NCBI RefSeq assembly: GCF_005670685.2
Contig: NZ_CP062008.1
Span: 1,488,001 to 1,552,000 of the forward strand
Length of the DNA: 64,000 nt
Source: Mycolicibacterium mucogenicum DSM 44124
GTDB lineage: Bacteria > Actinomycetota > Actinomycetes > Mycobacteriales > Mycobacteriaceae
Direction of reading: 5' to 3'
The notes beneath the pieces were generated by a model that was given only the letters and a program-made list of their open reading frames with translations, was not told where the DNA came from and did no database searches. A program made the position numbers and the translations under genes. Below are positions 27,926 to 49,000 of this stretch, piece by piece (position 1 is the stretch's first letter; every line of letters begins with the position of its first letter).

Positions 27926-28249
27926 ATGCCCACCGTCATCGCCATCGGTACGTACCTGCCGTTGACCGAGAGCAGCAATGCCGCCGGGCCACTGGCCGGG
28001 TTGGGCCTCGATCCCGAGCTGGACGGCGTCGGCATCCGGACACTCGTGAAAATCACTGGTACGCAGGCCGGTTCCCACCCGCCGGGTGCCATCGGTGTGG
28101 CACAGTGCGTCGAGTTGTTCCAACAACTTCGTGGCACTGCCCACAGTCAGGTGGACGGCGCCCGCATCGCGTTGGCACACAACATTGGCGGTCCGGCTGC
28201 CGTGTCGGCCGTGACGATTCTGGAAGGACCGGGCGCGGATGGCAGGTAA
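27926..28249 (+). CDS. Remnant of a thiolase-fold protein (N- and C-terminal ends only)
   Basis: The 107-residue product ends with a stretch typical of the thiolase C-terminus: GSHPPGAIGVAQCVELFQQL corresponds to 'GHPvGATGvaQ.vEl..QL', and ALAHNIGGPAAVSAVTIL to the closing strands. Its first 15 residues (VIAIGTYLP) resemble the first strand of thiolase-fold proteins. The whole middle, including the catalytic Cys domain, is missing, which suggests an in-frame internal deletion of a gene of about 400 codons. It overlaps yrbEA by 11 bp, so translational coupling could explain why a remnant persists. The call rests on motif reading only. Confidence 0.55.
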   Translation: MPTVIAIGTYLPLTESSNAAGPLAGLGLDPELDGVGIRTLVKITGTQAGSHPPGAIGVAQCVELFQQLRGTAHSQVDGARIALAHNIGGPAAVSAVTILEGPGADGR

Positions 28250-29048: not shown

Positions 29049-29057
29049 GACGCGGCG

Positions 29058-29912: not shown

Positions 29913-29920
29913 GGGCGACG

Positions 29921-31198
29921 GTGACGAAGAACCTGGGTCCGGGCCCCCTCCACCGGTCAGAGACCACCAGCTCCGCGGCTCCCGTGGCGGCCAAAGGCGG
30001 CGGACATTTCGGCGCCCGGACCTACGCGCGACCGCTGGCAGGCCTGGCGACGGTCGCCGTGGTCGGTGCGGTGATCGCATTGGCCATTGCCCTGTTCTCC
30101 GACAGTTTCACCGAATCGGTTCCGGTGACGGTCATTTCGCAGCGTGCCGGTCTGGTCATGAACCCGGACGCCAAAGTCAAGATGCGGGGGATCGAGGTCG
30201 GCACCGTCGAATCGATCGAGCAGCGCGCGGACGGCACCGCCGCCCTGCACTTGGCGATGGATCCGTCGCAGCTGCATCTGATTCCCGGGAATGTCCGCGC
30301 GAACATCGCGTCCTCGACGGTGTTCGGCGCGAAATATGTTGACCTGCAGGCGCCTTCCGATCCGTCCTCGACACCACTGCGGGCCGGACAAGAGCTGGGT
30401 GGCGACCACGTCACCGTCGAGATCAACACCGTGTTCCAACAGCTCACGAACGTGCTCGACAAGATCGACCCCGCCAAGCTGAACCAGACCCTGGCGGCCA
30501 TGTCGACCGCAGTGGCCGGGCGCGGCGAGCAATTCGGCCAGACCATGGTCGACTTCGACACCCTGCTGGCCAAGCTGAACCCGAGCCTCGCCAACTTCGG
30601 ACACGACATCGAGGTGATGGCCCCGGTGTCGCAGGCCTATGCCGATGCCGCACCCGACCTGCTCGAAACGGTCAAGAACGCCACCAGGATGAGCGCGACC
30701 TTGACCGAGGAACAGAAGAGTCTGGACAGTTTCCTGATCAGCATGTCGGGGCTCGCGGACACGGGCAACGATGTGCTCGGCGGAAATCGGGAGCAGCTCA
30801 GCAAGGTGCTGCACCTGTTGGCCCCGACTACCGACCTGCTCAACGAGTACGCGCCGGGGCTCAAATGTGCGCTGGGCGGAATGAACTTCCTGGCGCACCA
30901 GCCGCCGCAGCCCAATCCCGGCGTGATGGTCAACGCGTCGTTCGTCATGGGCATCGACCGCTACCGCTACCCGTCGAACCTGCCCAAAGTCGCGGCCAAG
31001 GGCGGCCCGCACTGTATGGGCTTGCCCTACATCGGATTTGGTAACCGGTCCAAGTATCTGGTCACGGACACCGCCGCCAACCCATGGGTGTACGGCAACC
31101 CAGGGGTGGTGCTCAACTCCGACGGCCTGAAGCAGATCCTGTTCGGCCCGATCGACGGTCCGCCGCGCAACACCACTCAGGCGGGTATGCCCGGATGA
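29921..31198 (+). CDS. mceA: MceA-family protein
   Basis: The 425-residue protein has a short cytoplasmic head, one membrane helix at about residues 38-59, then the MCE/MlaD domain with KVKMRGIEVGTVESIEQR and the VFGAKYVDLQAP segment, and a long helical and C-terminal MCE-family region with two Cys. Mce proteins form a periplasm-spanning hexameric tube for lipid import; MceA is the first subunit. The GTG at 29921 gives a proper N-terminus; the longer in-frame reading overlaps yrbEB. It overlaps mceB by 4 bp. I cannot assign the cluster to a numbered mce locus. Confidence 0.93.
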   Translation: MTKNLGPGPLHRSETTSSAAPVAAKGGGHFGARTYARPLAGLATVAVVGAVIALAIALFSDSFTESVPVTVISQRAGLVMNPDAKVKMRGIEVGTVESIEQRADGTAALHLAMDPSQLHLIPGNVRANIASSTVFGAKYVDLQAPSDPSSTPLRAGQELGGDHVTVEINTVFQQLTNVLDKIDPAKLNQTLAAMSTAVAGRGEQFGQTMVDFDTLLAKLNPSLANFGHDIEVMAPVSQAYADAAPDLLETVKNATRMSATLTEEQKSLDSFLISMSGLADTGNDVLGGNREQLSKVLHLLAPTTDLLNEYAPGLKCALGGMNFLAHQPPQPNPGVMVNASFVMGIDRYRYPSNLPKVAAKGGPHCMGLPYIGFGNRSKYLVTDTAANPWVYGNPGVVLNSDGLKQILFGPIDGPPRNTTQAGMPG

Positions 31199-32220
31199 AG
31201 CGTTCCAACTCCACACTGATCAAGTTCTCGGTGTTCGCCGCCGTCATGGTGCTGATGACGGTCTTCTTGTTCATGGCCTTCGGCCAATACCGCAGCGGCT
31301 CCACGTCGCAGTACAAGGCGGTGTTCGCCGACGCCTCGCGGCTCAAGGGCGGCGACTCGGTGCGGGTGGCCGGTGTCCGGGTGGGCACCGTGAACGATGT
31401 TGAGTTGCAAGACGATCACAAGGTGCTGGTCACATTCGACGCCGACAAGGACGTCGCGCTGACCACGGGGACCAAGGTTGCGGTCCGCTATCTCAACCTG
31501 GTCGGGGACCGCTTCCTCGAGTTGACGGCCGCACCGGGATCATCCCGGATTCTGCCCGCGGGCTCGACCATCGGTGAGGACCGTACGTCCGGTGCCCTGG
31601 ATCTGGATCTCCTGCTCAACGGATTGCGGCCCGTGGTCCGCGGGCTGAACCCACAGGACGTGAACGCACTGACGTCGTCGCTGGTCCAGATCTTCCAGGG
31701 GCAAGGGGACAACCTGGATTCCCTGCTGGGCAGGACGTCGTCGTTCTCGAATACGGTGGCGGACAACGCCCAGACGGTGTCGCAGCTGATCGACAACCTG
31801 AACCAGGTGGTCGGCACCTTGTCCAAAGACGGAAACCAATTCTCCGGCGCCATCGACAAGCTGCAGCAATTGATCAGCGGGCTGGCCCAGGATCGGGATC
31901 CGATCGGCAGCGCCATCACCCAACTGGATCAGGGGACCGCCTCGATCACCAGTCTGTTGAACCAGGCACGGGAGCCGCTGAAGCTGACCGTCGACGAACT
32001 CAACCGACTGGCTCCGTTCCTCGATGACCATAAGACGGTGCTGGACCGTGGCATTCAGAAGGATGTGGAGGTCTACCACAAGCTGGCCCGCCTCGGATCG
32101 TATGGCAGCTGGATCATGTACTACATCTGTGGTCTGCAGGTTCGCGTGTCAGACCTGCAGGGTCGCACCGCGGTGTTCCCGATGATTCAGCAAGAGGGCG
32201 GAAGGTGCGGTGAGCCCTGA
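31195..32220 (+). CDS. mceB: MceB-family protein
   Basis: The 341-residue product starts MKRSNSTLIKFSVFAAVM, with a membrane anchor at about residues 10-30. The MCE domain follows (VRVAGVRVGTVNDVELQDD, VRYLNLVGDRFLEL), then a long helical stretch of heptad-like repeats and a C-terminal MCEfam portion with a Cys in YICGLQVRVSD. The start overlaps mceA (ATGA), and the stop shares one base with the mceC start. Confidence 0.93.
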   Translation: MKRSNSTLIKFSVFAAVMVLMTVFLFMAFGQYRSGSTSQYKAVFADASRLKGGDSVRVAGVRVGTVNDVELQDDHKVLVTFDADKDVALTTGTKVAVRYLNLVGDRFLELTAAPGSSRILPAGSTIGEDRTSGALDLDLLLNGLRPVVRGLNPQDVNALTSSLVQIFQGQGDNLDSLLGRTSSFSNTVADNAQTVSQLIDNLNQVVGTLSKDGNQFSGAIDKLQQLISGLAQDRDPIGSAITQLDQGTASITSLLNQAREPLKLTVDELNRLAPFLDDHKTVLDRGIQKDVEVYHKLARLGSYGSWIMYYICGLQVRVSDLQGRTAVFPMIQQEGGRCGEP

Positions 32221-33302
32221 TGCTGAAATATCGCGGTGCACGGCTGGTCAAGGCCGGATTCTTCGGTGTTGTGTTGATAGCGCTCATCATTGCCATCGGA
32301 TTGCAGCCCGAACGGATCAGCCAGTGGGCCACTTCGGTGCGCTACCAGGCGGAGTTCACCGAGGCGGGCGGGATAGCGAAAGGCAATCAGGTCACCGTGT
32401 CCGGCATCAAGATCGGCACGGTCACCGACATCGCGCTGCGGGACGGCAATGCGGTGGTCACCTTCACCGCCAAGGGCAAGTACCCATTGGGTTCGCAAAC
32501 CACCGCGCACATCCGCACCGGGTCGCTGCTCGGCGAGCGGGTGCTGACCCTGGAATCGCGCGGCACGGGCACCATGCGGCCCAACGACGTCATCCCCACC
32601 ACGCGGACCTCGTCGCCATACTCGCTGACCGATGCGGTGGGCGAATTGACCAGCAACACCGCCGGCACCGATACCGCTTCGCTCAACCAGTCGCTCGACA
32701 CGCTGGCCGCGACGCTCGACCAGATCGCGCCGAAGCTCGGTCCGACCTTCGACGGGCTCAGCCGAGTATCGCGATCGCTCAACAGCCGCAACGAAAGCCT
32801 CGCCGGACTGCTCAAGAGCGCAGCGGATGTCACCAACGTGCTCTCCCAACGCAGTGGACAGTTGAACACATTGATCCTCGATGCCAACGACCTGCTCGGC
32901 GTGCTCAACGAGCGGCGCGAGGCGATCGTCGCGCTGCTCGCCAACACGTCGGCGGTGTCCAAACAGTTGTCGGGTCTGGTGCACGACAACCAGAAACAAT
33001 TGGCGCCCACACTCGAGCGGTTGAACCGAGTGACCGAGATTCTCGAGAAGAACCGCGACAACATCACCAAGATTCTCCCCGACATGCGGAAATTCATGCT
33101 GTCGCAAGGTGAGACGCTGGCCAACGGCCCGTACTACAGCGCCTATGTGCCGAACCTGATCCCCGCGCAGACGCTGCAACCGTTCTTCGACTATGCGTTC
33201 GGCTTCCGTCGCGGCGTGCACGCCGGCCAACCGCCGGACAACGCCGGACCGCGTGCCGAGCTCCCGCTGCCCTACAACGGTATTCCCGGAGGATCGCGCT
33301 GA
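32220..33302 (+). CDS. mceC: MceC-family protein
   Basis: The 360-residue protein has an N-terminal anchor at about residues 11-28 (AGFFGVVLIALIIAIGL). The MCE domain shows QVTVSGIKIGTVTDIALRDG and the beta-hairpin LLGERVLTLESRG. A helical region with regular hydrophobic heptads follows, which in Mce proteins builds the tube wall. It ends in a short Pro/Gly-rich tail. It is fourth of the eight yrbE-mce genes, with one-base stop/start overlaps on both sides. Confidence 0.93.
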   Translation: MLKYRGARLVKAGFFGVVLIALIIAIGLQPERISQWATSVRYQAEFTEAGGIAKGNQVTVSGIKIGTVTDIALRDGNAVVTFTAKGKYPLGSQTTAHIRTGSLLGERVLTLESRGTGTMRPNDVIPTTRTSSPYSLTDAVGELTSNTAGTDTASLNQSLDTLAATLDQIAPKLGPTFDGLSRVSRSLNSRNESLAGLLKSAADVTNVLSQRSGQLNTLILDANDLLGVLNERREAIVALLANTSAVSKQLSGLVHDNQKQLAPTLERLNRVTEILEKNRDNITKILPDMRKFMLSQGETLANGPYYSAYVPNLIPAQTLQPFFDYAFGFRRGVHAGQPPDNAGPRAELPLPYNGIPGGSR

Positions 33303-34831
33303 TGACGCGTAGGCGGTTGGCCGCGGCCGCGGTGGTCGCGCTGTTGGTGGTCGGCGGTGGATTCCTGGTGCGCCACTTGTTCTTTGCGCCCCGAACCATC
33401 AGCGCACTGTTCACCGAAGCCACCGGCATCTATCCGGGAGACGACGTCCGCGTGGCCGGCGTGAAGGTCGGCACCATCGGCGCGATCGTGCCGGAGGGCA
33501 CACAGACCCGGCTGACCCTCGACATCGACCGCGACGTGCCGATTCCCGCGGACGCCAAGGCCGTGATCGTGGCGCAGAACCTGGTGGCGGCGCGGTACGT
33601 CCAGCTGACCCCGGTGTACCGGCACAGCGGTCCGAAGCTGGGTGACAATGCCGTCATTCCGTTGGACCGCACCGCCGTTCCGGTCGAGTGGGATGAGGTC
33701 AAGACTCAGCTGACGCGGCTGGCCACCGATCTGGGGCCAAAGAGTGGTGTTTCCGGTACTTCGGTGTCGCGGATGATCGACAGCGCGGCAAATGCGCTGG
33801 ACGGCAACGGCCAGAAGCTACACGACACCATCACCGAAATGGCCGGTGCAGCAAGGGTGCTGGCGGCCGGCAGCGGCAACATGGTCGACATCATCAAGAG
33901 CCTGCAGACCTTCGTCACGGCGTTGCGCGACAGCAATCAGCAGATCGTGGCGTTCCAGAATCGGCTCGTGACGCTCACCGGAGTGGTCGACGGCAGCAAG
34001 TCGGATCTCGATGCGGCACTGAAGGATCTGTCGACGTCGATCGTCGAGGTGCAGAACTTCGTCGCCGGCACCCGGGACCAGACAGCCGAGCAGGTGCGCC
34101 GACTGACCAACGTCACGCAGAACCTCGTGGACAACCAGATGCAGCTGAAGAACATCCTGCACATCGCCCCCAACGAGTTCGTCAACGCATACAACATCTA
34201 CAACCCGGTGACAGGCAGTCCGGTCGGCCAATTCGTACTGAACAACTTCTCGTCACCCGTCGAATTCATCTGCGGGGCAATCGGTGCGTTGGAGAACACC
34301 ACCGCACCCGAGACCGCGAAGCTCTGTGCGCAGTACCTCGGTCCGGCCCTGCGCCTGGTCAACTTCAACCATCTGCCGTTCGGGATCGATCCGTTCCTGA
34401 TGCCGGCCGCGTCGCCAGAGGACCTCGTGTATTCCGAAGCGCGCCTGGCACCCGGTGGCGGTGGCGGATCGCCGGTACCGCCGGAGACCGATCCGGTGCT
34501 GTCGGCCTACAACCCTGGCCCGGCCGTGCCGCCCTTCACCGGCAGGCCGCCGGGCACTCCGCCACCGGGAGCCGACCAGATGCTGCCCAACGCGCTGCCG
34601 AATCCGGGGCCGAACATGCCGCCGTCGGTGTGGTCGATGCTGAATCCGGCCGGGCCGGTGCCCGGGCCCGCCCCGCAAGGCACACCGCCGCCGTTGCCTG
34701 CCGAGGCGCCTGCGGCACCGGTCGGTCCTCCTGTGCCCGCGGGCCAGATCGGTAGCGACACTCCACTCGGCCCGGGCATGTCCGCCGCCCCGCCACCACC
34801 GGCCCCGGCAGAAGGGGCGCCGCGCCCATGA
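33302..34831 (+). CDS. mceD: MceD-family protein with Pro-rich tail
   Basis: The 509-residue protein has an anchor at about residues 6-23, the MCE domain (DVRVAGVKVGTIGAIVPEG, LVAARYVQLTPVY) and a helical middle. A C-terminal tail of about 120 residues is very rich in Pro, Gly and Ala (PPPGADQMLPNALPNPGPN). Such tails are usual on MceD and MceF and are thought to reach into the cell wall. It overlaps mceE by 4 bp. Confidence 0.92.
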   Translation: MTRRRLAAAAVVALLVVGGGFLVRHLFFAPRTISALFTEATGIYPGDDVRVAGVKVGTIGAIVPEGTQTRLTLDIDRDVPIPADAKAVIVAQNLVAARYVQLTPVYRHSGPKLGDNAVIPLDRTAVPVEWDEVKTQLTRLATDLGPKSGVSGTSVSRMIDSAANALDGNGQKLHDTITEMAGAARVLAAGSGNMVDIIKSLQTFVTALRDSNQQIVAFQNRLVTLTGVVDGSKSDLDAALKDLSTSIVEVQNFVAGTRDQTAEQVRRLTNVTQNLVDNQMQLKNILHIAPNEFVNAYNIYNPVTGSPVGQFVLNNFSSPVEFICGAIGALENTTAPETAKLCAQYLGPALRLVNFNHLPFGIDPFLMPAASPEDLVYSEARLAPGGGGGSPVPPETDPVLSAYNPGPAVPPFTGRPPGTPPPGADQMLPNALPNPGPNMPPSVWSMLNPAGPVPGPAPQGTPPPLPAEAPAAPVGPPVPAGQIGSDTPLGPGMSAAPPPPAPAEGAPRP

Positions 34832-36198
34832 GCACTGTGAAATCTGCTGGTGCACAATATCGTTCCCGATGGGAGCGGACGGCAAAGGCGGCCCTGGCGA
34901 CCGGCGTGGCGATCATGCTGACCACAACCGGCTGTGCGTTTCAGGGCGTGAACTCGCTTCCGCTGCCCGGCGCGGTCGGCCGTGGGACGGGCTCGACGGT
35001 GTACCACGTCGAGGTCGCGAACGTGGCGACGCTCGAACCGAATTCGCCGGTGATGATCAACGACGTCGTGGTGGGCAGCGTCCGCCGCATGACGGCCAAG
35101 AACTGGCACGCGGACATCGAGTTCTCGGTGAAGCCGGGCGTGACCGTCCCTGCCAATGTGGTGGCGCGGGTCGGCCAGACCAGCCTGCTGGGTTCGATGC
35201 ACCTGGCACTGGACCCGCCGGTCGGCCAAAACCCGAGCGGCGCTTTGGCTCCCGGCGCGACGATCCCGTTGAACGACTCGTCGACCTACCCGACCACCGA
35301 ACGGACGTTGTCGTCTTTGGCTGCCGTGGTCAACGGCGGCGGGCTGGGCCAGATCGGGGACGTGATCCACAACTTCAGCAGCGCGCTGAACGGTCACGAA
35401 GCCGAATTCCGTGATCTGCTGTCACGTTTGAACGACTTCGTCGGCACCCTGGACGACCAACGCGACGCCATCGTCAACTCGATCCAAGCGCTCAACCGGC
35501 TGGCGGCTACGTTCGCCGGGCAGCGCGATGTGCTCACCCAGGCTCTCAACAAGATCCCACCGGCGCTGGATGTGCTGATCAAGCAACGGCCGCAGTTGAC
35601 CACCGCGCTGACCAAACTCGGCAAATTCAGCAACGTGGCGACTGAGCTCGTCAACGACTCCAAGGCCGATCTCGTGAGCAACCTCAAGAACATCACACCG
35701 GCGCTGGCGGCGTTCACCGCCCTGGGGCCCGATGTCGACACCGTTCTCGAGTACCTGCCGCATTTCCCGTTCACCGGCAGCTTCATCGACCGAGCAATCC
35801 GCGGAGACTATTACAACCTCTACGCCGTCATCGACCTCACCATCCCGCGTCTGAAGCACAGCACGATGCTGGGTACCCGGTGGGGGCAGGAGGGCACCCA
35901 ACTTGTGCCGGCGCCAGGTGACCCGTCGTATCTGAACTACACCTACGACCCGCTCAAGACCGGCATCGACCCACCGCCGCCGGGCAGCTGGGTGCCGAGT
36001 TCACCGCAGCCGCCGTGGGCGCCGCCGCCGGCCGTGGCCGAAAGCCCCGGCCCGATGCTGCCGTTGGTACCGCAGGCGGGAATGGCCGGCAGCGTTGTGC
36101 GGGACGCGCCGCCGACCGCCCCGAACCAGCTGTTCGCGGGTCCATACGGAGCGCAGGCGCCCGAGCCGGCCCCGGCGCCGCCGAACGGAGGCAACTGA
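34828..36198 (+). CDS. mceE: MceE-family lipoprotein
   Basis: The 456-residue protein has a lipoprotein signal peptide ending in LTTTGC, with the lipidated Cys at residue 36. The MCE domain follows (SPVMINDVVVGSVRRM, GQTSLLGSMHLALDPP), then the helical region and a Pro-rich end. MceE is the lipoprotein subunit in mycobacterial mce operons (LprK is the Mce1 example), which supports this being a complete six-subunit set in canonical order. Confidence 0.93.
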   Translation: MSTVKSAGAQYRSRWERTAKAALATGVAIMLTTTGCAFQGVNSLPLPGAVGRGTGSTVYHVEVANVATLEPNSPVMINDVVVGSVRRMTAKNWHADIEFSVKPGVTVPANVVARVGQTSLLGSMHLALDPPVGQNPSGALAPGATIPLNDSSTYPTTERTLSSLAAVVNGGGLGQIGDVIHNFSSALNGHEAEFRDLLSRLNDFVGTLDDQRDAIVNSIQALNRLAATFAGQRDVLTQALNKIPPALDVLIKQRPQLTTALTKLGKFSNVATELVNDSKADLVSNLKNITPALAAFTALGPDVDTVLEYLPHFPFTGSFIDRAIRGDYYNLYAVIDLTIPRLKHSTMLGTRWGQEGTQLVPAPGDPSYLNYTYDPLKTGIDPPPPGSWVPSSPQPPWAPPPAVAESPGPMLPLVPQAGMAGSVVRDAPPTAPNQLFAGPYGAQAPEPAPAPPNGGN

Positions 36199-37940
36199 TG
36201 CTCACCCGATTCGTCCGGATTCAGTTGATTCTCTTCACCATCGCGTCGGTCATCGGCGTGACGGTGATGCTGTTCGCCTACATGCAGATACCCACGCTGC
36301 TCGGGCTCGACCGGCTGACGGTCAAGCTGCAGCTGCCGGCCACCGGTGGGCTGTACCGCTTCAGCAATGTCACGTATCGCGGATCGCAGATCGGCCGGGT
36401 CACCGACATCAAGCTGACGCCGACGGGTGCCGAGGCAACGTTGTCGCTGGACACCTCGCCGAAGGTCCCGGCTGCGCTGCAGGCGCAGGTCCGCAGCATG
36501 TCGGCGGTGGGCGAGCAGTACGTAGAACTGTTGCCCAAGAACAACTCTGGGCCGTACCTCGAAGACGGCGCGACCATTCCGCTGGCGGACACCACCATCC
36601 CGCAGCCGGTGGGCCCGATGCTGGACAAGCTCGGCGCCATGGTCGACACGATTCCGGGCGACAAGCTGGCCAAGCTGCTCGACGAGTCCTACGCGGCGTT
36701 CAACGGCACGGGCTACGACTTCGGGTCGCTGCTGGATTCGGCGTCGAAGCTGACCACCGCCGCCAACGGAGTCTCCGACCAGATGCGTACGTTGGTCGAC
36801 GACTCAGGACCATTCCTGGACGCGCAGGCGCAGAACACCGACGGCATCCGGGCCTGGGCGGCCCATCTGGCCGGAATCACCGGCACGATGGCCAATGACG
36901 ACACGCAGTTCCGTTCGATACTGCACAACGGTCCGGGCTTCTCGCAGGAGACCTCAAACCTGTTGCAGCAGATCAAGCCGACTCTTCCGATCTTGCTGGC
37001 GAACCTGGGCACCATAGGTCAGATCGGTGTCACCTGGCACGCGTCGCTCGAACAGCTGCTGGTGCTGCTGCCGCCGTTCGTGGCGCAGATTCAAACGTAT
37101 GCGCCCGTGAACAGTCCCACCGGCATGCCCAACGGTGACTTCTCAGTCGGTCTCGGTGACCCGCCGTCGTGCACAGTCGGCTTTCTGCCGCCCTCGGCTT
37201 GGCGGTCCCCGGCCGACCTGAGCCCCGCCGATACTCCTGACAATCTGTACTGCAAGTTGCCGCAGGACTCGCCGATCGCGGTGCGCGGTGCGCGCAACTA
37301 CCCGTGCATGGACAACCCGGGAAAACGGGCGCCCACGGTCGAATTGTGCAATGACCCCAACGGTTTTCAGCCGCTGGCACAGCGGCAGCATGCCTTGGGG
37401 CCGTACCCGATCGACCCCAACCTGATCGCGCAAGGTATTCGTCCGGATTCGCGGGCGCGGCCCGACGACAACATCTACGGTCCAATCGAGGGCTCGCCAC
37501 TGCCGGCGGGCGTGGCGGACCGGCCGCAGGCGCCACCGGCGCCGGCCCCGCCACCTGCCAGCTACCCAGGTATGCCGCCGGGTCCACTGCTGCCGTATCC
37601 ACCACTACACGTGGACGCGCCGGCTGCGGCACCAGCGGACGGCGGCTTGCCGCAAGGGCCGATGGTCCCAGACCGCCCAGATCTGCTGCCGCGGGCGACC
37701 ACTGTGCCCACCCCGGCGCCCGGTCCTCCGGATGTCGGTGCCAACGCCCCTGTGCCGCAAGGGAATTCGGCGCCGCAGGCAGCGCCGAGCGCGTTCAAGC
37801 AGTCTTCCTCCGGTCCGTCCGTGATGATCGCCCATTACGATCCGCGCAGTGGTCAGTATCTGGGCAGTGACGGAAAGTTGTACGCGCAGTCCGACCTGGT
37901 GAAGCCGGCGACGTCGTGGGAGCAGATGATGCCGTCGTAG
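36198..37940 (+). CDS. mceF: MceF-family protein with long Pro-rich C-terminus
   Basis: The 580-residue product has an anchor at about residues 8-27, the MCE domain (NVTYRGSQIGRVTDIKLTP, SAVGEQYVELLPK), the helical region, then a segment with several Cys and a Pro-rich stretch of roughly 110 residues. It closes with MIAHYDPRSGQYLGSDGKLY, a motif common at the end of MceF-type proteins. The ATG at 36198 shares a base with the mceE stop; an in-frame upstream reading overlaps mceE and is not used. It ends the yrbE-mce operon, 41 bp from a convergent gene. Confidence 0.93.
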   Translation: MLTRFVRIQLILFTIASVIGVTVMLFAYMQIPTLLGLDRLTVKLQLPATGGLYRFSNVTYRGSQIGRVTDIKLTPTGAEATLSLDTSPKVPAALQAQVRSMSAVGEQYVELLPKNNSGPYLEDGATIPLADTTIPQPVGPMLDKLGAMVDTIPGDKLAKLLDESYAAFNGTGYDFGSLLDSASKLTTAANGVSDQMRTLVDDSGPFLDAQAQNTDGIRAWAAHLAGITGTMANDDTQFRSILHNGPGFSQETSNLLQQIKPTLPILLANLGTIGQIGVTWHASLEQLLVLLPPFVAQIQTYAPVNSPTGMPNGDFSVGLGDPPSCTVGFLPPSAWRSPADLSPADTPDNLYCKLPQDSPIAVRGARNYPCMDNPGKRAPTVELCNDPNGFQPLAQRQHALGPYPIDPNLIAQGIRPDSRARPDDNIYGPIEGSPLPAGVADRPQAPPAPAPPPASYPGMPPGPLLPYPPLHVDAPAAAPADGGLPQGPMVPDRPDLLPRATTVPTPAPGPPDVGANAPVPQGNSAPQAAPSAFKQSSSGPSVMIAHYDPRSGQYLGSDGKLYAQSDLVKPATSWEQMMPS

Positions 37941-37981: not shown

Positions 37982-38509
37982 CTAGCCGGCGACCTTCTTC
38001 ATGTAGAACGGCATCCGGACGACCGGCCACTGGTTGCGGCCGCAGGATCCGCTGGGGCCCATGGTGTGGTCTTCACCGGCGTACTCGTCAGAGAGGTTAG
38101 CCAAGCGGCCGTCGGGCGCTACTGGATAGATTTTGTACTCCTGGAAGCCCTGGATGGCGGTGCCGTCGTCGCAGTACCGCCAGTTGGGCACCGACCGTTT
38201 GACGAAGTAGATGCCGTCCGTGGTGTAGATCGGCGCGGTCCATCCGTCACTGCTCTTGACGGTGCCTGTGCAGTCCGACGGGCCCACGCATCGGGTAGTG
38301 ATGGTCCACGTGGCCCGGTTCCCGGGTTGCGCCTCGTATCGCTCGTTGAGTTTGGCGAACGCGCCGTTCGATGAGGTGGCGAACGTGCCGTTGATGCCCC
38401 AGAGGCTCGGGTCTTCGTCGGCGTGGGCCGGCGTCGCACCCGACAATGCGACGGCGGTGGCGAGGAGCGAACCGACCGCCGCCTTGGTGCTCCATGTAAA
38501 GCCCGGCAT
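37982..38509 (-). CDS. Secreted protein of the mce locus (175 aa)
   Basis: A signal peptide is clear (KAAVGSLLATAVALSGATPAHA, cleavage near residue 31). The mature 145 residues carry four Cys (TTRCVGPSDCTG, WRYCDDG, GSCGRNQ), suggesting two disulfides. I recognise the style of secreted mycobacterial proteins but no functional family. GAGGG precedes the ATG. It faces mceF, and an ATTCTC-N7-GAGAAT inverted repeat lies 28 bp upstream of its start. Confidence 0.8.
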   Translation of the reverse strand: MPGFTWSTKAAVGSLLATAVALSGATPAHADEDPSLWGINGTFATSSNGAFAKLNERYEAQPGNRATWTITTRCVGPSDCTGTVKSSDGWTAPIYTTDGIYFVKRSVPNWRYCDDGTAIQGFQEYKIYPVAPDGRLANLSDEYAGEDHTMGPSGSCGRNQWPVVRMPFYMKKVAG

Positions 38510-38536
38510 GGCGTCCCTCTGCAGTGTGGTAGTTCT

Positions 38537-38555
38537 ATTCTCGAATTTGGAGAAT
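38537..38555. promoter_or_regulatory. Inverted-repeat site A (ATTCTC-N7-GAGAAT)
   Basis: ATTCTCGAATTTGGAGAAT is a 19-bp inverted repeat with perfect 6-bp arms. It sits in the promoter region of the secreted-protein gene ending at 38509, so a bound regulator would touch the core promoter. Sites of the same spacing occur at 39371 and 40862. Confidence 0.65.
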
Positions 38556-38607
38556 ATCAGTTCCGATCGGGTGGCAGATTGCCATCTGCAGTATCACTTC
38601 GGCGCGC

Positions 38608-39279
38608 TCAGATGTACTCGAGATCGGCGATCTTCAGCAGACCTTCGTCTTGTGTCAGCGTCACGACCACCCGGAATCGTTTCGGCGCCGGGTGCGGGTC
38701 TTTGGTGTTGGCCGCCTGCGATGTCGCCGCGACGAGGACCACGGCCGAGTTCTCGGATACCGATTGGACCGCGACCCCGGTCACCTCGACATGGGTGACC
38801 ACCTTGGCGTCGATGAGCTGTCTGACCAGGATGTACTGCTGCCCTTGGAAGTCGTCCTTGAACTTGCCGGTGGCGTTGTCGGCGATGCGTTTCACATCGT
38901 CTTCGGCGTTGATGAAGTTCAGTGACATGACGTTGATGACACCCTGTCGGGCTGCCACCGCCGCGCGCTCTTGCTGCTGGTGCTGCGTCTGCGCCAGCTG
39001 GTGACGCCAGCTCAGGGACGCGCCGATGCCGAGCAGGATGCAGAAGGCCAGGCCGGCGAGACCCACCGCGATCGGGCGCCACCGTGACACCTGGCGTGGT
39101 GGCGCGGCTGTGGTGGGGCTCGCTGCAGCAACTGACTCGGTCGCCTGCCTGCGGAGTTCGGCAGCGCGGGCGCGCGCCTGGCGGGCACGTTCCTCCGCCT
39201 GCACAGCCTCGGCTTCGGCTGCTGCCGCATCGCCGGCCGCCGCGGTATCTGCGGAATTGCCGACGGCCTGTGGTGCCAT
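38608..39279 (-). CDS. Mce-associated membrane (Mam) protein
   Basis: The 223-residue protein has an Ala/Glu/Arg-rich N-terminal coiled-coil-like region (residues 15-60). One membrane helix follows (WRPIAVGLAGLAFCILLGIG), then the extracytoplasmic domain of Mam proteins with ARQGVINVMSLNFINAEDD and the VSENSAVVLVAATS strand. This NTF2-like domain is typical of proteins encoded beside mce operons, some of which stabilise Mce complexes. It is divergent from the secreted-protein gene at 39420; an inverted-repeat site lies between them. Confidence 0.88.
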   Translation of the reverse strand: MAPQAVGNSADTAAAGDAAAAEAEAVQAEERARQARARAAELRRQATESVAAASPTTAAPPRQVSRWRPIAVGLAGLAFCILLGIGASLSWRHQLAQTQHQQQERAAVAARQGVINVMSLNFINAEDDVKRIADNATGKFKDDFQGQQYILVRQLIDAKVVTHVEVTGVAVQSVSENSAVVLVAATSQAANTKDPHPAPKRFRVVVTLTQDEGLLKIADLEYI

Positions 39280-39370
39280 GGGGAAGACTTCCTTGTGTCG
39301 GGTGGCGCGTTGCCCAGGTTAGTGGTCCCACCGGTACGTCGCGGTGGGTTGTGTCGACCATCGTAATCGC

Positions 39371-39389
39371 CTTCTCTGAAACAGAGAAT
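39371..39389. promoter_or_regulatory. Inverted-repeat site B (CTTCTC-N7-GAGAAT)
   Basis: CTTCTCTGAAACAGAGAAT has 5-bp perfect arms (TTCTC/GAGAA) and the same 7-bp spacer as sites A and C. It lies 92 bp upstream of the Mam gene at 38608-39279 and 31 bp upstream of the divergent secreted-protein gene at 39420, so it could serve both. Confidence 0.65.
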
Positions 39390-39419
39390 TTCGTTTCCCA
39401 ATGTGCGAAAGTTGAGGGC

Positions 39420-39818
39420 GTGCGCGTGATGGTGTTGGCGGCCGCCTCGATGCTGATGGCTGGCATGGCCATGGCGCCCCGATCCTGGGATGTCCTGCCC
39501 ACCGCGACCGCAGACCCCCAGACCTGCAACGACGCGTTCTGCGTGCCGGGCATCATCCCGCACCGGGTGCTGGGCGCACCGTGCGACAACACCACCTATT
39601 ACGTCTTCGCCACGACGGACTGGGGCCGGCTGATGTTCTGCGGCTCGCCCCGACGCTACGAGCCCCGCTGGTTCCGCTCGCCGCCGATGGCCGGCGTTCG
39701 CGACGAGAACAGCGACTGCATGACCGAGCAGAGCATGGTCGCGCAGGCGCCGGATGGCTTGTTCCTGACGTGTGTTCCGATGAACGGCGTCAGTCGCTGG
39801 ATGCGCGGCGACACCTGA
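39420..39818 (+). CDS. Small Cys-rich secreted protein of the mce locus
   Basis: The start may be GTG 39420, GTG 39426 or ATG 39429; all give a short signal peptide (MVLAAASMLMAGMAMA). The mature part of about 105 residues has six Cys (QTCNDAFC, GAPCDN, LMFCGS, SDCMTE, LTCVPM), consistent with three disulfides. No family is recognised. It is flanked by Mam genes and preceded by site B, which links it to the mce locus. Confidence 0.7.
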   Translation: MRVMVLAAASMLMAGMAMAPRSWDVLPTATADPQTCNDAFCVPGIIPHRVLGAPCDNTTYYVFATTDWGRLMFCGSPRRYEPRWFRSPPMAGVRDENSDCMTEQSMVAQAPDGLFLTCVPMNGVSRWMRGDT

Positions 39819-39884
39819 GTCGGCACCAGCATGGAGCCGGCACCTCGGTGAATTCGCCAGAGGCGCTAAAGCTTTCGCGGAAAG

Positions 39885-40319
39885 CTACCAGTTTCGGATC
39901 GAGCACAAGGCTCCGCGGGGGCCGCTGCCCTCCTTCACCACGGCGCCGTCGACTTCGAGTCGACATTTGAAGGCCGGGGTCTTGAAGTTGGGGGCCTCGC
40001 CGGACTGCACCATGACTGTTGCCCAGAGATTGGGATCATTCAGCGTCGTGTCGAAGACCCACGGTTGGTTGGGCCCGACGGTGACGTCGGCCCGCGGGCT
40101 GAACTCATAGGGATTATGGCTGTAGTCGGACCAGGTCGGTGGGTCGACCTCCCGGTAATAGATGTAGCTGAAGATCGGCGCGTCCGCGCTCACGACGTAG
40201 CGGACGTGATGTGCCGCGGGTGGCGGCGCCGGTGCGGCTTCGTCATCCGCGAAGGCGGGCGCAGGCGCTGCCGACGACGAGATCAGTACTGCCGCAGCGA
40301 GAATCACCGAAGTGCGCAT
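39885..40319 (-). CDS. MmpS-like secreted protein
   Basis: The 144-residue product has a signal peptide (LAAAVLISSSAAPAPAFA). Its mature domain has the MmpS pattern: VRYVVSADAPIFSYIYYREV for the first strands, the WVFDTTL segment, AFKCRLEVDGAVVKEGSGP, and a second Cys near the end. MmpS proteins usually carry a membrane anchor and partner an MmpL exporter; this one appears soluble and sits in an mce locus. It begins 2 bp after the preceding secreted-protein gene, so they form an operon. Confidence 0.7.
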   Translation of the reverse strand: MRTSVILAAAVLISSSAAPAPAFADDEAAPAPPPAAHHVRYVVSADAPIFSYIYYREVDPPTWSDYSHNPYEFSPRADVTVGPNQPWVFDTTLNDPNLWATVMVQSGEAPNFKTPAFKCRLEVDGAVVKEGSGPRGALCSIRNW

Positions 40320-40321
40320 CG

Positions 40322-40789
40322 TTACATCCTGGTGAGACCGAATGGATAGGTCAGCGTACCTCCGGGTGCGCCGTCGCAACCGGAGTCGAACGACGAAGTC
40401 ATGGTCCCGGTGAGAGTTGTTGCGTCCCAAACATATACATCATGAGTCGGGATGGTCGGCCCGTAATAGAGATCGCCGCAACGCAACCCGATGTCCTCGT
40501 TGATGGTCAGCGTGTACTGGCCGTTGACCAGCTGTGCGTCACCCGCGGAGCTGTCGGCCTTGGCCACCGGTTGCGGGATGGTCAGCACATGGATGCATTT
40601 GTCGAGGCTGATCTGGCTGCCGTCCGGGGCGTAACACGGCGACTGCGCCGACCAGATCCACGTATGGAAGTCGCGGCGGTCCGGGATGTGCATGTTGTAG
40701 TTGCCCGGCCACATGGTCGCCGAGGCGGGAGGTGCCAGAGCGATCGACGCGGCAGACAGCGCTGCAGCGCCCATCGCCAGCAACTTCAT
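40322..40789 (-). CDS. Secreted protein of the mce locus (155 aa)
   Basis: The ATG at 40789 is preceded by GGTGGAGGA and opens a signal peptide (KLLAMGAAALSAASIALA, cleavage near PASA). The mature part has four Cys (SPCYAPDG, DKCIHVL, GLRCGDLY, DSGCDG). It has the pattern of an Ig-like or beta-rich secreted mycobacterial protein; I cannot name a family. It heads a two-gene operon with the MmpS-like gene, and site C lies 73 bp upstream. Confidence 0.75.
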   Translation of the reverse strand: MKLLAMGAAALSAASIALAPPASATMWPGNYNMHIPDRRDFHTWIWSAQSPCYAPDGSQISLDKCIHVLTIPQPVAKADSSAGDAQLVNGQYTLTINEDIGLRCGDLYYGPTIPTHDVYVWDATTLTGTMTSSFDSGCDGAPGGTLTYPFGLTRM

Positions 40790-40861
40790 CACATTCCTCC
40801 ACCGCTTCGCGTAGCCGGGTTGGTATGGACTGGTGCCTGGAACCGGCACCGCGAGACTGTT

Positions 40862-40880
40862 GTTCTCCAAAACGGAGAAT
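40862..40880. promoter_or_regulatory. Inverted-repeat site C (GTTCTC-N7-GAGAAT)
   Basis: GTTCTCCAAAACGGAGAAT has the same TTCTC/GAGAA arms and 7-bp spacer as sites A and B. Read against the reverse complement of site A, it shares the core TTCTCCAAA and GAGAATA. It is upstream of the secreted/MmpS-like operon on the minus strand. Confidence 0.65.
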
Positions 40881-41081
40881 AACATCGCCGGTTGGCCGCG
40901 GGTGGCGGAATCTGTGCACAGGTGCCGATGGTCCAGTGTGGGGGCATGTGGTCGGTCCGGCTGGGGATTGCGGCGGCCGAGGCGGGGCGCTCCGCGTCAA
41001 TATGTCCACGTAAATGACATTTCCGCAGGCAAAGACCGCTTTGTGGACTGATTGAGTGGCGCGAGGTTACGGTGGTATGAC

Positions 41082-41102
41082 GAGAATGATAATCTCATTC
41101 TC
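41082..41102. promoter_or_regulatory. Variant inverted repeat D upstream of the Mam pair
   Basis: GAGAAT, nine bases, then ATTCTC form a 21-bp inverted repeat with perfect 6-bp arms (8-bp arms if the spacer is counted as 5). The half-sites are those of sites A-C but in the opposite order. The inner GATAAT could be a -10 box, placing the element on the promoter 34-54 bp before the Mam gene. It also looks somewhat like a Fur/Zur box (AATGATAAT), so a metal regulator is an alternative reading. Confidence 0.55.
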
Positions 41103-41135
41103 CTACATTGCCTTGCGACGCGGACAGGAGGTTCG

Positions 41136-41993
41136 ATGCCGTCCCTCAATGAGGCGTCAGTATTGATCAGTATGGACGAACCGAGCATGGGCCGGCCCGA
41201 GTCGCCCGACGCGCTCTCGCTGGCGGCCGACGAGGCCGAGGCGGAGGCCGCCGAGGCGGAAGCGATGGCGGCCGCAGCCCGCGCCCGGGCCAAGGCGATC
41301 CGGCTGCGCCGCGCCGCGGCGGAAACCGAGGAGGTCGCGGCGCGCGAAGCCGACTCCGATGCCGGTGCCGCGACAGACGTCGAAGTGGCTGCCACCGCTG
41401 ATCTTGAGGAGACCGAACCGCCCGCGGCGGCCGATGCTGCCGACGACATCGACACCGATCTGGCTGTTGCACAGACGCCGCCGGCGCCGGCGCAGCGTGA
41501 TTCGCGGCGAGTCATCCTGACCGTGGTCGCGGCGACCCTGATCGTCGTGATCTCGCTCGGACTGGTCGGGCTGGGCGGCTGGATGATGTGGCAGCACCAC
41601 AAAACCGACGCGGATGCGCGCCAGCGGGCCGAATATGCGGCCGGCGCGAGCCAGGGCGTGGTGAACCTGATGTCCTTGGATTTCAACCATGCCAAGCAGG
41701 ATGTGCAGCGCATCATCGACAGCACCGCCGGGGACTTCAAGAAGGATTTCCAAGCCCAGGCAGGCGATTTCGTCAAGGTGGCCGAGTCGTCGAAGGCGGT
41801 CACCGTGGCGACGGTGAATGCCACGGCGGTGCAGTCGATGACCGAGAACACCGCCAACGTATTGCTCGCGGTGACCACCCGGGTGTCCAACGCCGTCAGC
41901 AAGGAACAGCAGCCCAGGTCATGGCGGCTCAGTGTCGACGTGGTCCGCGACGGCGGCCAGATCAAGCTAGCGAAAGTCGAGTTCGTGCCGTGA
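41136..41993 (+). CDS. Mce-associated membrane (Mam) protein, long acidic N-terminus
   Basis: The 285-residue protein has about 120 cytoplasmic residues very rich in Ala and Glu, with an Arg/Ala helix (AAAARARAKAIRLRRAAAE). One membrane helix follows (VILTVVAATLIVVISLGLVGLGG), then a Mam-type domain (GASQGVVNLMSLDFNHAKQD, ENTANVLLAVTTRVSN). GGACAGGAGG precedes the ATG at 41136. It overlaps the next Mam gene by 4 bp (GTGA), and element D lies in its promoter. Confidence 0.88.
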   Translation: MPSLNEASVLISMDEPSMGRPESPDALSLAADEAEAEAAEAEAMAAAARARAKAIRLRRAAAETEEVAAREADSDAGAATDVEVAATADLEETEPPAAADAADDIDTDLAVAQTPPAPAQRDSRRVILTVVAATLIVVISLGLVGLGGWMMWQHHKTDADARQRAEYAAGASQGVVNLMSLDFNHAKQDVQRIIDSTAGDFKKDFQAQAGDFVKVAESSKAVTVATVNATAVQSMTENTANVLLAVTTRVSNAVSKEQQPRSWRLSVDVVRDGGQIKLAKVEFVP

Positions 41994-42595
41994 CCGCAGA
42001 AGATGACGAAGCCACTACGGCGGCAACCGATGTCGAGCCCGCGGCCGAGGAGCCGACGGCCGGCACGCCGGCCGAATCCGAGGCCGGCGGTGAATCGCTT
42101 CGGACCCGGCGGGCCCGGGTGTTGTTGCCGGCGCTGTTGGCGCTGATGCTGGCGGTGGCCTCGAGCTTCGCCGTGTGGGTGTATCTGAAGCAGTACCGCC
42201 CGGATCAGCAGACCGACGCCGCGGTGGCCGAGACGGTGGTCAAGGCCGCATCCGATGGCGCCGTCGCGATGCTGTCGTACGCCCCGCAGACGATGGACAA
42301 GGACTTCGCGTCGGCGAAATCCCACCTCACCGGCGACTTCGTCAAGTTCTACACGGACTTCACCAACAGCGTCGTGACCCGCGCGGTCAAGGAGAAGTCC
42401 GTCAAGACGGAGGCGACGGTCGTGCGGGCCGCTGTCTCCGATCTGTCGCCGGAGTCGGCGCTCGTGTTGGCATTCATCAACCAGACCACGGTGAGCAAGG
42501 ACAATCCGGACGGCACGTTCGCCCAGAGCGCGGTGAAGATTTCCATGAAGAAGATCGACGGCGCCTGGTTGATCTCCGCTTTCGACCCGGTCTAG
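41990..42595 (+). CDS. Mce-associated membrane (Mam) protein
   Basis: The 201-residue protein has an acidic, Thr/Ala-rich N-terminus, one membrane helix (LLPALLALMLAVASSFAVWVYL) and a Mam domain (AASDGAVAMLSYAPQTMDKD, PESALVLAFINQTTV). The start is GTG 41990, overlapping the preceding Mam stop. Its own stop overlaps the stop of the convergent ispD-family gene by 4 bp. Confidence 0.88.
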   Translation: MTAEDDEATTAATDVEPAAEEPTAGTPAESEAGGESLRTRRARVLLPALLALMLAVASSFAVWVYLKQYRPDQQTDAAVAETVVKAASDGAVAMLSYAPQTMDKDFASAKSHLTGDFVKFYTDFTNSVVTRAVKEKSVKTEATVVRAAVSDLSPESALVLAFINQTTVSKDNPDGTFAQSAVKISMKKIDGAWLISAFDPV

Positions 42596-43329
42596 TTCGC
42601 GGCGAGCGGTTCAGATTCCTGTCCGCGTCCGAGCCGGCCGAGCAGGCGCTCGGCGACCTGCACGTCGTGTGCGAATGTCACCTTGAAGTTCTGGGCCGAT
42701 CCGGCGATCGCGTGGACCTCGATGTCGGTGAAGCGCTCCACGCACGACGAGGTGTCGGTGCCCTCGAACCCGGCAGCCGCCGCGTCCTGGTACGCCTGCC
42801 ACAGCGGTGCGGCGCGAAAAGCCTGCGGTGTCTGCACCCGCACCAACGACTGGTCGATGGCGCTGAGCCCGTTCTCGGTCAGGCGCAGCACGTCGCCCGA
42901 TGGCAGCACCGGTATGGCGCCGCCCCGCTCGCGTGCCGTCGTGACGGCGGTGTCCATCAGGTCGGCACCGGCCAGCGGACGGGCGGCGTCGTGGATCAGC
43001 ACCACGTCGACGGCGCCGGCATCGATATCGGCCGCGAGGTAGCTCAGCACGTTGTGTTCGGAGCCGTGCCGCGAGTCACCGCCTTCGACGAATTCGACTG
43101 TGGTGCTGGGGAGTTCGTCGGCCATGAGGCGAACCACCTGGTCGCGCTCACCGCGGCGGAACACCAGGATGGTGCGGGCGACCCGGGGGCTGGCGGCCAC
43201 GGCCGCCACCGACCACGCCACCATGCTGCGGCCGGCCAGTTGCAGGTAGGCCTTGTTGCCGTCGGCCCCGACCCGGGATCCGATGCCGGCGGCAAGGACG
43301 ACGCCGACGGCGATCGGGGGAGCGGACAC
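42592..43329 (-). CDS. ispD: IspD-family 2-C-methyl-D-erythritol 4-phosphate cytidylyltransferase
   Basis: The 245-residue enzyme keeps the IspD landmarks: the CTP-binding loop VVLAAGIGSRVGADGNKAYL, VLIHDAARPLAG, the MEP-binding DTSSCVERF and RVQTPQAF. It would convert MEP and CTP to CDP-ME in the non-mevalonate isoprenoid pathway. In mycobacteria I know, ispD sits beside ispF and carD; here it is between Mam genes and an LtrA gene, so it may be a second copy. Start GTG 43329. The DTSSCVERF segment differs from the usual acidic 'DEA..VE' form, so activity needs testing. Confidence 0.85.
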   Translation of the reverse strand: MSAPPIAVGVVLAAGIGSRVGADGNKAYLQLAGRSMVAWSVAAVAASPRVARTILVFRRGERDQVVRLMADELPSTTVEFVEGGDSRHGSEHNVLSYLAADIDAGAVDVVLIHDAARPLAGADLMDTAVTTARERGGAIPVLPSGDVLRLTENGLSAIDQSLVRVQTPQAFRAAPLWQAYQDAAAAGFEGTDTSSCVERFTDIEVHAIAGSAQNFKVTFAHDVQVAERLLGRLGRGQESEPLAAN

Positions 43330-46032: not shown

Positions 46033-49000
46033 ATGACGATCAACGAGCACCGCAATGTGACCAGTGGCAACACCGAGGCGGTGGCGGCGAGCGCACATGC
46101 TCTCGTGGACCTGCTGAACGCCGGCGAGCCGTATGCCGTCGCGTTCGGTGGTCAGGGTGCCTCGTGGCTGGAGAACCTCGAAGAGCTCGTCAGCTCGGCC
46201 GGCATCGAATCCGAGCTCAGCGAGATCGTCGGCGAAGCGGCCCTGCTGCTGGAGCCCGTCGCGCGCGAGCTCGTCGTCGTACGGCCCATCGGCTTCGAGC
46301 CCATGCAGTGGGTGCGCGCCCTCGCCGCCGACGAGCCGCTGCCGTCGGCCAAGCAGCTGACCACCGCCGCCATCTCCGGCCCCGGCATCCTGCTGGCCCA
46401 GATGGCCGCCATTCGCGCCGTGCAGCGTCAGGGCCTCGACCTGGCCGGCACCCCGCCCGTCGCCGTCGCCGGCCACTCGCAGGGCATCATCGCCGCCGAG
46501 GCGCTCAAGGCCAACGGCACCCGCGACGCCGAACTCCTCGCGCTCCTCCAGCTCATCGGTGCCGCCGGCTCGCTCGTGTCGCGCCGCCGCGGCATGGTCG
46601 GCCGCGGCGACAAGTCGCCGATGGTGTCGGTCACCAACGTCGACCCCGAGCGCATCGCCGAACTGCTCGAAGACTTCTCCAAGGACGTCCGCACCGTCCT
46701 GCCGCCGGTCCTGTCGATCCGCAACGGCCGCCGCAGCGTCGTCATCACCGGAACCCCGGAGCAGCTGGCCCGCTTCGAGCTGTACTGCAGCAAGATCACC
46801 GAGAAGGACGAGGCCGAGCGCAAGAACAAGCTGCGCGGCGGCGCCGTCTTCAGCCCGGTCTTCCAGGGCGTGCAGGTCGAGGTCGGCTTCCACACCCCGC
46901 GCCTGGCCGACGGCATCGAGGTCGTCGACCGCTGGGCCGCCAAATGCGGTATCGACACCGAGCTGGCCCACGCGATGACCGAAGCCATCTTCGTCAAGCC
47001 CATCGACTGGGTCGCCGAGGTCGAGCGCATGCACGATGCCGGTGCCCGCTGGATCATCGACCTCGGCCCGAGCGACACCGTCACCCGCCTGACCTCGCCG
47101 ATCATCCGCGGCCTCGGCATCGGCATCGTGCCCGCCGCCACCCGCGCCGGCCAGCGTTCGCTGTTCACCGTTGGCGCCGCCCCGGTCGTGCAGCCCGCGT
47201 GGTCCAGCTTCGCGCCGACGGCGGTCGAGCTGCCCAACGGCGACGTCAAGCTGTCAACCAAGTTCACCCGCCTGACCGGTCGCTCGCCGATCCTGCTCGC
47301 CGGCATGACCCCGACGACCGTCGACGCCAAGATCGTCGCCGCGGCCGCCAACGCCGGCCACTGGGCCGAGCTGGCCGGTGGCGGTCAGGTCACCGAGGAG
47401 ATCTTCGAGAACCGCGTCGCCGAGCTGACGCAGCTGCTCGAGCCGGGACGCGCCATCCAATTCAACTCGCTGTTCCTGGACCCCTACCTGTGGAAGCTGC
47501 AGCTGGGCGGCAAGCGCATCGTGCAGAAGGCGCGCCAGTCGGGCGCCCCGATCGACGGTGTCATCGTCACCGCCGGCATCCCCGAGCTCGACGAGGCCGT
47601 CGCGCTGATCGAGGAACTGCACGAGATCGGCATCACCAACGTGGTGTTCAAGCCGGGCACCGTGGACCAGATCAAGTCGGTCATCAAGATCGCCGAAGAG
47701 GTCCCGGACCGGGAGATCATCGTCCACGTCGAGGGCGGCCGCGCCGGTGGCCACCACTCGTGGGAGGACCTCGACGACCTGCTCGTCAGCACCTACTCGG
47801 ACCTGCGCAAGCAGGCCAACCTGACCATCTGCGTCGGTGGTGGCATCGGCACGCCAGAGCGCGCCGCCGAGTACCTGTCCGGCCGCTGGGCCGAGACCTA
47901 CGGCTTCCCGCTGATGCCGGTCGACGGCATCCTGGTCGGCACCGCCGCCATGGCCACCCTCGAGGCCACCACCTCGCCTCAGGTCAAGCAGCTGCTGGTC
48001 GACACCAAGGGCACCGATCACTGGGTCGGCGCCGGTAAGGCCCAGGGCGGCATGGCTTCCGGCCGCAGCCAGCTGGGCGCGGACATCCACGAGATCGACA
48101 ACACCGCGTCGCGTTGCGGCCGCCTGCTCGACGAGGTCGCCGGTGACGCCGACGCCGTCGCCGAGCGCCGCGACGAGATCATCGCCGCGATGGCCAACAC
48201 CGCCAAGCCGTACTTCGGTGACGTCGCGGACATGACCTACCAGCAGTGGCTGCAGCGCTACGTCGAACTCGCGATCGGCGACGGCAGCAGCACCGCCGAC
48301 ACCAAGCGCGACCACTCGCCGTGGCTCGACATCACCTGGCGCGACCGCTTCGAGGAGATGCTGCAGCGTGCCGAGGCCCGCCTGAACCCGGCCGACGCCG
48401 GCCGCATCGAGACGCTGTTCCCGGCGACCGCGGAAGGTGAAGCGCTGCTTGAGGATCCGCAGCGCGCCATCGCCGAGCTGCTCGCCCGGTACCCGGAGGC
48501 CGAGACCCTGCGCCTGCACCCGGCAGACGTCCCGTTCTTCATCACGCTGTGCAAGACGCTCGGCAAGCCCGTCAACTTCGTCCCGGTCATCGACAAGGAC
48601 GTGCGCCGCTGGTGGCGCAGCGACTCGCTGTGGCAGGCGCACGACGCCCGCTACGACGCCGACCAGGTCTGCATCATCCCCGGGACCGCTGCCGTCGCCG
48701 GCATCACCCGCGTCGACGAGCCCGTCGGCGAGCTGCTGGACCGCTTCGAGCAGGCCGCCATCGACGAGGTGCTGGCCGCCGGCGTGAAGCCGGTTCCGGT
48801 CGTCTCGCGCCGCCAGGCCCGTGCCGACATCACCGGCCCGCTGGCCGTCGTCCTCGACTCGCCCGACGTGCTGTGGGCCGGCCGCACCGCCATCAACCCG
48901 GTGCACCGCATCGGCGCCCCGAGTGAGTGGCAGGTCAACGAAAACCGTTCGGCCACACACCCGTCCACCGGTTCCCGGCTGGAACTCGACGGTGACGGCG

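Follow-up and report, generated by a model that had tools for sequence, protein, structure and literature searches.

Which regulator reads the short palindromes of the mce locus in Mycolicibacterium mucogenicum DSM 44124, and how far does its control extend? The locus lies in a stretch of 64,000 nucleotides (NZ_CP062008.1, positions 1,488,001 to 1,552,000, forward strand), which at its full length we call the window. A sequence-only reading of the window had noticed three inverted repeats and proposed that they are a shared operator through which one regulator coordinates four secreted proteins, mce-associated membrane (Mam) proteins and perhaps the Mce transporter. Our comparisons across genomes give good support to these palindromes serving as a common control point for a large regulon, one that reaches beyond the secreted, Mam and mce genes. 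They further suggest that the sites are probably operators of one TetR-family regulator, here called TetR2, controlling the mce and secreted genes, the Mam genes and a catabolic island.

The three repeats are as described. TTCTC-N7-GAGAA occurs in the window at 38538-38554, 39372-39388 and 40863-40879, each time with the same spacing and upstream of a separate small gene, and there is no fourth match in the 64 kb; the count of 3 compares with a shuffle mean of 0.03, with at least 3 in 0 of 100 shuffles. When the arms are extended to 6 bp (ATTCTC/GAGAAT), site A alone is perfect, and the outermost base is off in B (C for A) and C (G for A). The transporter, for which the same control had been only a "perhaps", can be included: a site also precedes the leader of the mce operon, and another precedes the second Mam gene, in an everted form (GAGAAT-N3-ATTCTC) that we distinguish from the closed form ATTCTC-N7-GAGAAT. 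The five operators, listed without strand, are as follows.

38537-38555: Operator A, ATTCTC-N7-GAGAAT, conserved at orthologues
39371-39389: Operator B, cTTCTC-N7-GAGAAT, between a Mam gene (38608-39279, minus) and a secreted gene from about 39426 (plus)
40862-40880: Operator C, gTTCTC-N7-GAGAAT, preceding the minus-strand secreted genes 40322-40792 and 39885-40319
26357-26375: Operator D, ATTCgC-N7-GAGAAT, promoter of the aldehyde dehydrogenase gene leading the mce operon
41082-41096: Operator E, everted GAGAAT-N3-AATCTC, one mismatch to GAGAAT-N3-ATTCTC, promoter of the second Mam gene

On the minus strand, the upstream arm of Operator A reads as the extended -10 element TGaTATTCT of the secreted gene sec1, and Operator C reads TGtTATTCT. 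A further ATTCTC directly follows Operator E (41097-41102). The palindrome at 41081 at first resembled a Fur or Zur box, an assignment that was dropped as the everted form fits better.

Across the genome, a single contig of 6,099,273 bp, TTCTC-N7-GAGAA is found at 11 sites versus 1 for the reversed pattern. Of the 11, A, B, C, L006 and L007 belong to the regulon, and L005, L008, L010 and L011 look coding by eye. Because this plain pattern, present 1-11 times in each of 21 genomes, is too loose for whole genomes and draws in coding background (by eye, a SufC-like ABC signature, for example), the 12-base forms were used. With 6-bp arms and at most one mismatch, there are 8 genome sites versus 0 for the reversed control; six belong to the regulon, namely Operators A-D plus the sites at 3758451 and 3828614, and the other two, at 30403 (outside called genes) and 5061164 (inside a called gene), are not. 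The catabolic island, with further sites, lies at 3.75-3.85 Mb, about 2.2 Mb from the window, and all 7 exact everted sites of the genome fall between called island genes (3781171-3848101). Two intergenic-looking matches to TTCTC-N7-GAGAA, L004 (2201749) and L009 (4425478), were not assigned to the regulon; their settings are an exported-looking protein/permease pair downstream and another TetR-like gene alongside.

Conservation at orthologous promoters supports a shared control site. A protein search found relatives of sec1 in 35 of 61 genomes, with 58-67% identity in 8 genomes besides this one. At least one perfect ATTCTC-N7-GAGAAT is retained in the secreted-gene cluster beside the mce operon in eight of eight relatives (stretches of 17-20 kb), counterparts of Operators B and C are present in relatives, and an equivalent of Operator D with 1-2 mismatches precedes the orthologous aldehyde dehydrogenase leader in all seven relatives read. 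There the locus continues into genes for a cytochrome P450, the regulator TetR1, a thiolase and its ChsH2-like partner, an enoyl-CoA hydratase, acyl-CoA synthetases and an amidohydrolase; the same catabolic part is separate in this genome, at 3.75-3.85 Mb.

Broader counts were made on 80 loci, the best 80 of 352 TetR1 relatives in a scan of named mycobacterial genomes, closely related species and metagenome-assembled genomes included. Genes in these loci were called with our own codon-score script (which gives approximate starts and overlooks some genes) and named by blast against reference proteins, and genes whose upstream DNA runs off the contig were excluded from the per-gene promoter counts. 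Some of the genomes counted also served to define the motif. The 80 loci hold 140 closed sites (at most one mismatch), of which 130 lie outside called genes, non-coding DNA being one fifth of the total; in 20 of the loci, the motif gives 28 sites, and 8 control palindromes of equal composition give 0-1 each. One form or the other is found in 78 of 80 loci, the two exceptions being short contig pieces (15.3 and 5.9 kb). At the one-mismatch threshold, the closed form precedes the enoyl-CoA hydratase gene in 61/61 cases, FadDa in 41/48, the ChsH2-like gene in 17/36 and a VOC gene in 5/24, as well as sec1 (16/64), sec2 (17/45), sec4 (6/22), sec3 (3/59) and the second Mam gene (4/72); the everted form precedes the amidohydrolase gene in 74/74 and the second Mam gene in 15/72. 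Neither form stands before mceB-mceF (0/205), FadDb (0/72), the thiolase (0/38) or the P450 (0/79); mceB-mceF, FadDb and the thiolase are genes inside operons. The operator that had been proposed for the secreted and Mam genes and the transporter is conserved upstream of orthologues and rare elsewhere, and the module drawn around it is well supported; the regulon is wider than that module and takes in a lipid-type catabolic island.

The single regulator that had been supposed now has a strong candidate by co-occurrence and promoter motif, although it is encoded outside the window and its binding is a prediction. TetR2 is a protein of 219 amino acids (genome 3835968-3836624) encoded within the catabolic island. 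The lead came from G061, a genome of another genus in the same family, in which mceF and a TetR gene stand together with a perfect operator; that TetR shares 56% identity with TetR2 of this genome, and a second G061 copy shares 75%. Within the order, TGNNATTCTC-N7-GAGAAT is present in 14 of 150 genomes, and TetR2 is encoded by exactly these 14. In 30 chosen genomes, TetR2 is encoded by 19 of 19 with perfect sites and by 1 of 11 without (G034). The everted GAGAAT-N3-ATTCTC is likewise present in 13/13 TetR2-positive versus 0/10 TetR2-negative genomes (23 chosen), its reversed control occurring once in this genome and in none of the other 22. Across 29 TetR2 promoters (30 loci minus L307, at 34% identity), the everted motif is exact in 20, and has one mismatch in 5, two in 3 and three in 1, as expected under autoregulation. 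In other genomes, some exact everted sites fall beyond the island, as do 2 of 9 in G042 among the matches listed. The TetR helix-turn-helix model (PF00440, cut-off 24) scores 30 bits for TetR2 of this genome and 39.8 for the G061 homologue, and the predicted structure is an all-helical TetR fold (mean predicted local distance difference test score 81.4), with YvdT, EthR2 and FadR nearest to it.

Several observations weigh against TetR2 as the regulator of the whole set. Thirteen of the 14 operator-positive genomes belong to one genus, from which 14 were sampled, and since these genomes are related, the match between TetR2 and the operator rests on few independent gains and losses. The TetR2 gene is beside mceF in G061, but about 38-140 kb from sec1 in other relatives and 2.3 Mb from it in this genome, a distance that leaves room for another factor of the same distribution. 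TetR2 promoters carry mainly the everted form, with the closed form there only with mismatches, and G034 encodes TetR2 without a perfect closed site; its closed site ahead of TetR2 has one mismatch, and a single everted site lies 0.6 Mb away. In a comparison of 12 chosen genomes, the looser TTCTC-N7-GAGAAT appears five times in 4 of 10 TetR2-negative genomes, the outer A of the 12-base operator being absent at all of these matches. Coverage of the secreted genes is also uneven. A site (at most one mismatch) precedes 12 of the 13 nearest sec1 relatives (at least 56% identity) and only 4 of 51 more distant ones, and at the same identity it precedes only 12/32 sec2 and 6/14 sec4 relatives and 0/14 of sec3, which follows sec4. 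Finally, the binding, repression and effector of TetR2, and the substrate of the pathway, are all inferred.

One alternative is another, unlinked regulator that would bind the sites, with TetR2 sharing its distribution and being one of its targets. Closed sites are rare in TetR2 promoters, the operators of such a factor could precede TetR2, and the distribution fits any gene gained with the island. However, the 30 largest clusters of unlabelled genes in the 80 loci include a single regulator that recurs widely, a cox-linked TetR present in 20 loci, and the everted motif, which almost every TetR2 promoter carries, is what autoregulation predicts; we consider this alternative unlikely. Regulator genes of the GntR and TetR types in the window and L072 were dropped, as none recurs widely in the 80 loci, the cox-linked TetR excepted. 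A LysR-type box (T-N11-A), raised on the 4-N7-4 spacing, was also set aside, with no LysR gene seen by eye in the 30 clusters.

TetR1, the TetR encoded beside the P450 and the nearest regulator to the mce and secreted-gene cluster in most species, would be the natural binder by position. Its gene lies mid-locus, all 21 sites of the perfect 19-mer fall in mce/TetR1 loci, and the two co-occur in 12/12 TetR1-positive versus 0/9 TetR1-negative genomes (12 of 29 TetR1-positive genomes and all 9 TetR1-negative genomes of the same genus). Against this, the TetR1 promoter has its own palindrome, GCTNAGCANNTGCTTAGC, a different motif found in 28 of 129 loci, once each and always before TetR1 (its position was confirmed in the 20 TetR1 loci that contain it), and loci of sister TetRs carry a 16-bp palindrome of another sequence in 10 of 16. 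Operator sites precede the P450 in 0/79 and TetR1 in 1/80 loci. Two genomes of other families, G016 and G070, encode TetR1 and lack TGNNATTCTC-N7-GAGAAT, GAGAAT-N3-ATTCTC and TetR2, and G034 has TetR2 and imperfect sites without TetR1. With its own palindrome, and with two genomes that have it without the operator, TetR1 is rejected as the binder, a role we now think very improbable for it.

We note separately that TetR1 and its sister TetRs (L108:13735-14325 and others) have distinct compact palindromes close to the genes that encode them (GCTNAGCANNTGCTTAGC; TTGGGCGATCGCCCAA; TTGATCGATCGATCAA). These appear to change with the sequence of the recognition helix, which may offer a data set on TetR specificity.

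The mycobacterial -10 element is TANNNT. That the arms are mere -10 elements on both strands and no regulator site, as TGnTATTCT in the arm (an extended -10) and the position of several sites between divergent genes might suggest, is scarcely credible given fixed 7-bp and 3-bp spacings, TCTC/GAGA retained at site B, which TANNNT does not fit, and 12-base motifs absent from the tested genomes without TetR2.

As the common regulator, TetR2 would read one hexamer in two arrangements. Logos were built from 124 closed and 135 everted sites, related species included and with enoyl-CoA hydratase and amidohydrolase sites as a large share. In these, degenerate hexamers lie 3 bp outside each arm of the closed form (GRTRWT-GNY-ATTCTC-N7-GAGAAT-RNC-AWYAYC), and weak TTC[TG]C-like arms flank the everted sites at a distance of 7 bp, with promoter and ribosome-site sequence contributing to the flanks of both logos. 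Given the flanking hexamers, the closed form can be seen as a pair of 6-3-6 units spaced 22 bp from centre to centre. It is possible, though we would put the chance somewhat below even, that one TetR reads the hexamer in two geometries, the closed form taking two dimers on one face of the DNA two helical turns apart, and that it runs a complete, dedicated lipid pathway in which secreted Rv2253/PknI-type and Mam proteins are outer parts of an Mce importer and P450, Rieske and beta-oxidation-type enzymes, encoded over about 100 kb, act inside.

We propose that TetR2 would bind the half-sites ATTCTC/GAGAAT as GAGAAT-N3-ATTCTC or as ATTCTC-N7-GAGAAT. The gene-strand arm reads TGnTATTCT at A and C and TGaTAATCT at the Mam site (E), with no such -10 at site B. 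At several promoters the ATTCTC arm may thus double as the -10 box; as the arms fit TANNNT, bound protein would block RNA polymerase there, in the manner proposed for KstR (PMC1995591). A pathway intermediate, probably an acyl-CoA or a carboxylic acid, could then release TetR2; an acyl-CoA-type effector is plausible because FadR and EthR2 are among the folds nearest to the model. Release would jointly activate the mce transporter and its aldehyde dehydrogenase, the window's four secreted proteins and its Mam proteins, and also the island with its acyl-CoA synthetases, enoyl-CoA hydratases, acyl-CoA dehydrogenases, Rieske oxygenases, P450s and amidohydrolases. The island enzymes probably break down a lipid.

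Among described systems, KstR, the mycobacterial TetR repressor of sterol catabolism and mce4, offers a parallel in logic: its operator lies over the -10 and its own promoter carries the motif (PMC1995591). As in that regulon, one TetR would govern an mce importer and catabolic genes of the fadD, ech and thiolase type, but the KstR operator given there, TnnAACnnGTTnnA, is not matched by sites A-E, which have ATTCTC/GAGAAT in two spacings (PMC1995591). The enzymes also differ, and secreted and Mam genes are included here, the comparison being one of motifs rather than of aligned proteins. Mce3R, too, is of the TetR type and regulates an mce operon together with lipid genes, and it matches TetR2 weakly (24.4 bits); it is, however, a double TetR in one 406-amino-acid chain with 25-bp non-palindromic sites (PMC11667970), whereas TetR2 has one TetR_N stretch in its 219 amino acids and not the two-unit architecture. 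FadR-type TetRs (Bacillus, Thermus) and EthR2 of M. tuberculosis are among the solved folds nearest to the TetR2 model, at identities of only about 14-21%, and several FadR structure entries are titled as acyl-CoA complexes. The gene arrangement in relatives such as L232 resembles that of mce5 of M. paratuberculosis (Casali and Riley naming), where Mas (Mam) gene pairs lie up- and downstream on the opposite strand; the accessible text names no regulator for mce5 (PMC1810536). The matches listed in literature on mce loci, TetR regulators and the enzyme set yielded no recognised description of this operator and none of TetR2, and the accessible text of a survey of mycobacterial TetRs, motif logos aside, has neither GAGAA nor TTCTC (PMC4482099).

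The genes around the operators in the window are listed below. Profile models (MlaE, MlaD, Mce4_CUP1) cover yrbEA, yrbEB, mceA, mceB and mceF, and mceC-mceE were assigned by gene order and relatives.

26415-27911, plus: aldehyde dehydrogenase, leading the transporter operon (PF00171, E 7.8e-147)
27926-28249, plus: 107-amino-acid remnant of a longer gene (354-391 amino acids in relatives), by comparison with relatives
28239-37940, plus: mce operon yrbEA, yrbEB, mceA-mceF
37982-38509, minus: sec1, secreted, Rv2253/PknI dimerization domain (NF052447, 73.1 bits, cut-off 35; signal peptide by eye)
38608-39279, minus: Mam protein, named by eye, no Pfam or NCBIfam match
39426-39818, plus: sec2, secreted (by eye)
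39885-40319, minus: sec3, secreted (by eye)
40322-40792, minus: sec4, secreted (by eye)
41136 or 41172-41993, plus: second Mam gene, start ambiguous, by eye

The remnant at 27926-28249 we presume to be thiolase-like. The mce leader region here is without a CoA-transferase gene and most of the next gene, both present in relatives (L108:15960-17156), and a CoA-transferase of the relatives' kind lies near TetR1 at 3.78 Mb of this genome; from this placement, the mce locus was probably split and rearranged here. On either side of the mce locus lies a gene that matches IspD (25509-26102, short, and 42592-43329), and further on a 3074-amino-acid reading frame followed by a small gene occupies 46033-55257, which looks like a type I fatty acid synthase with its phosphopantetheinyl transferase.

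To our knowledge, most mce importers are without a known substrate. The operator would place one mce type, along with the secreted and Mam proteins that accompany it, under common control with a specific catabolic island, and the co-regulated enzymes allow a search for the substrate class. The small secreted proteins become testable as parts of the uptake system, and the candidate regulator TetR2 gains a clear set of operators.

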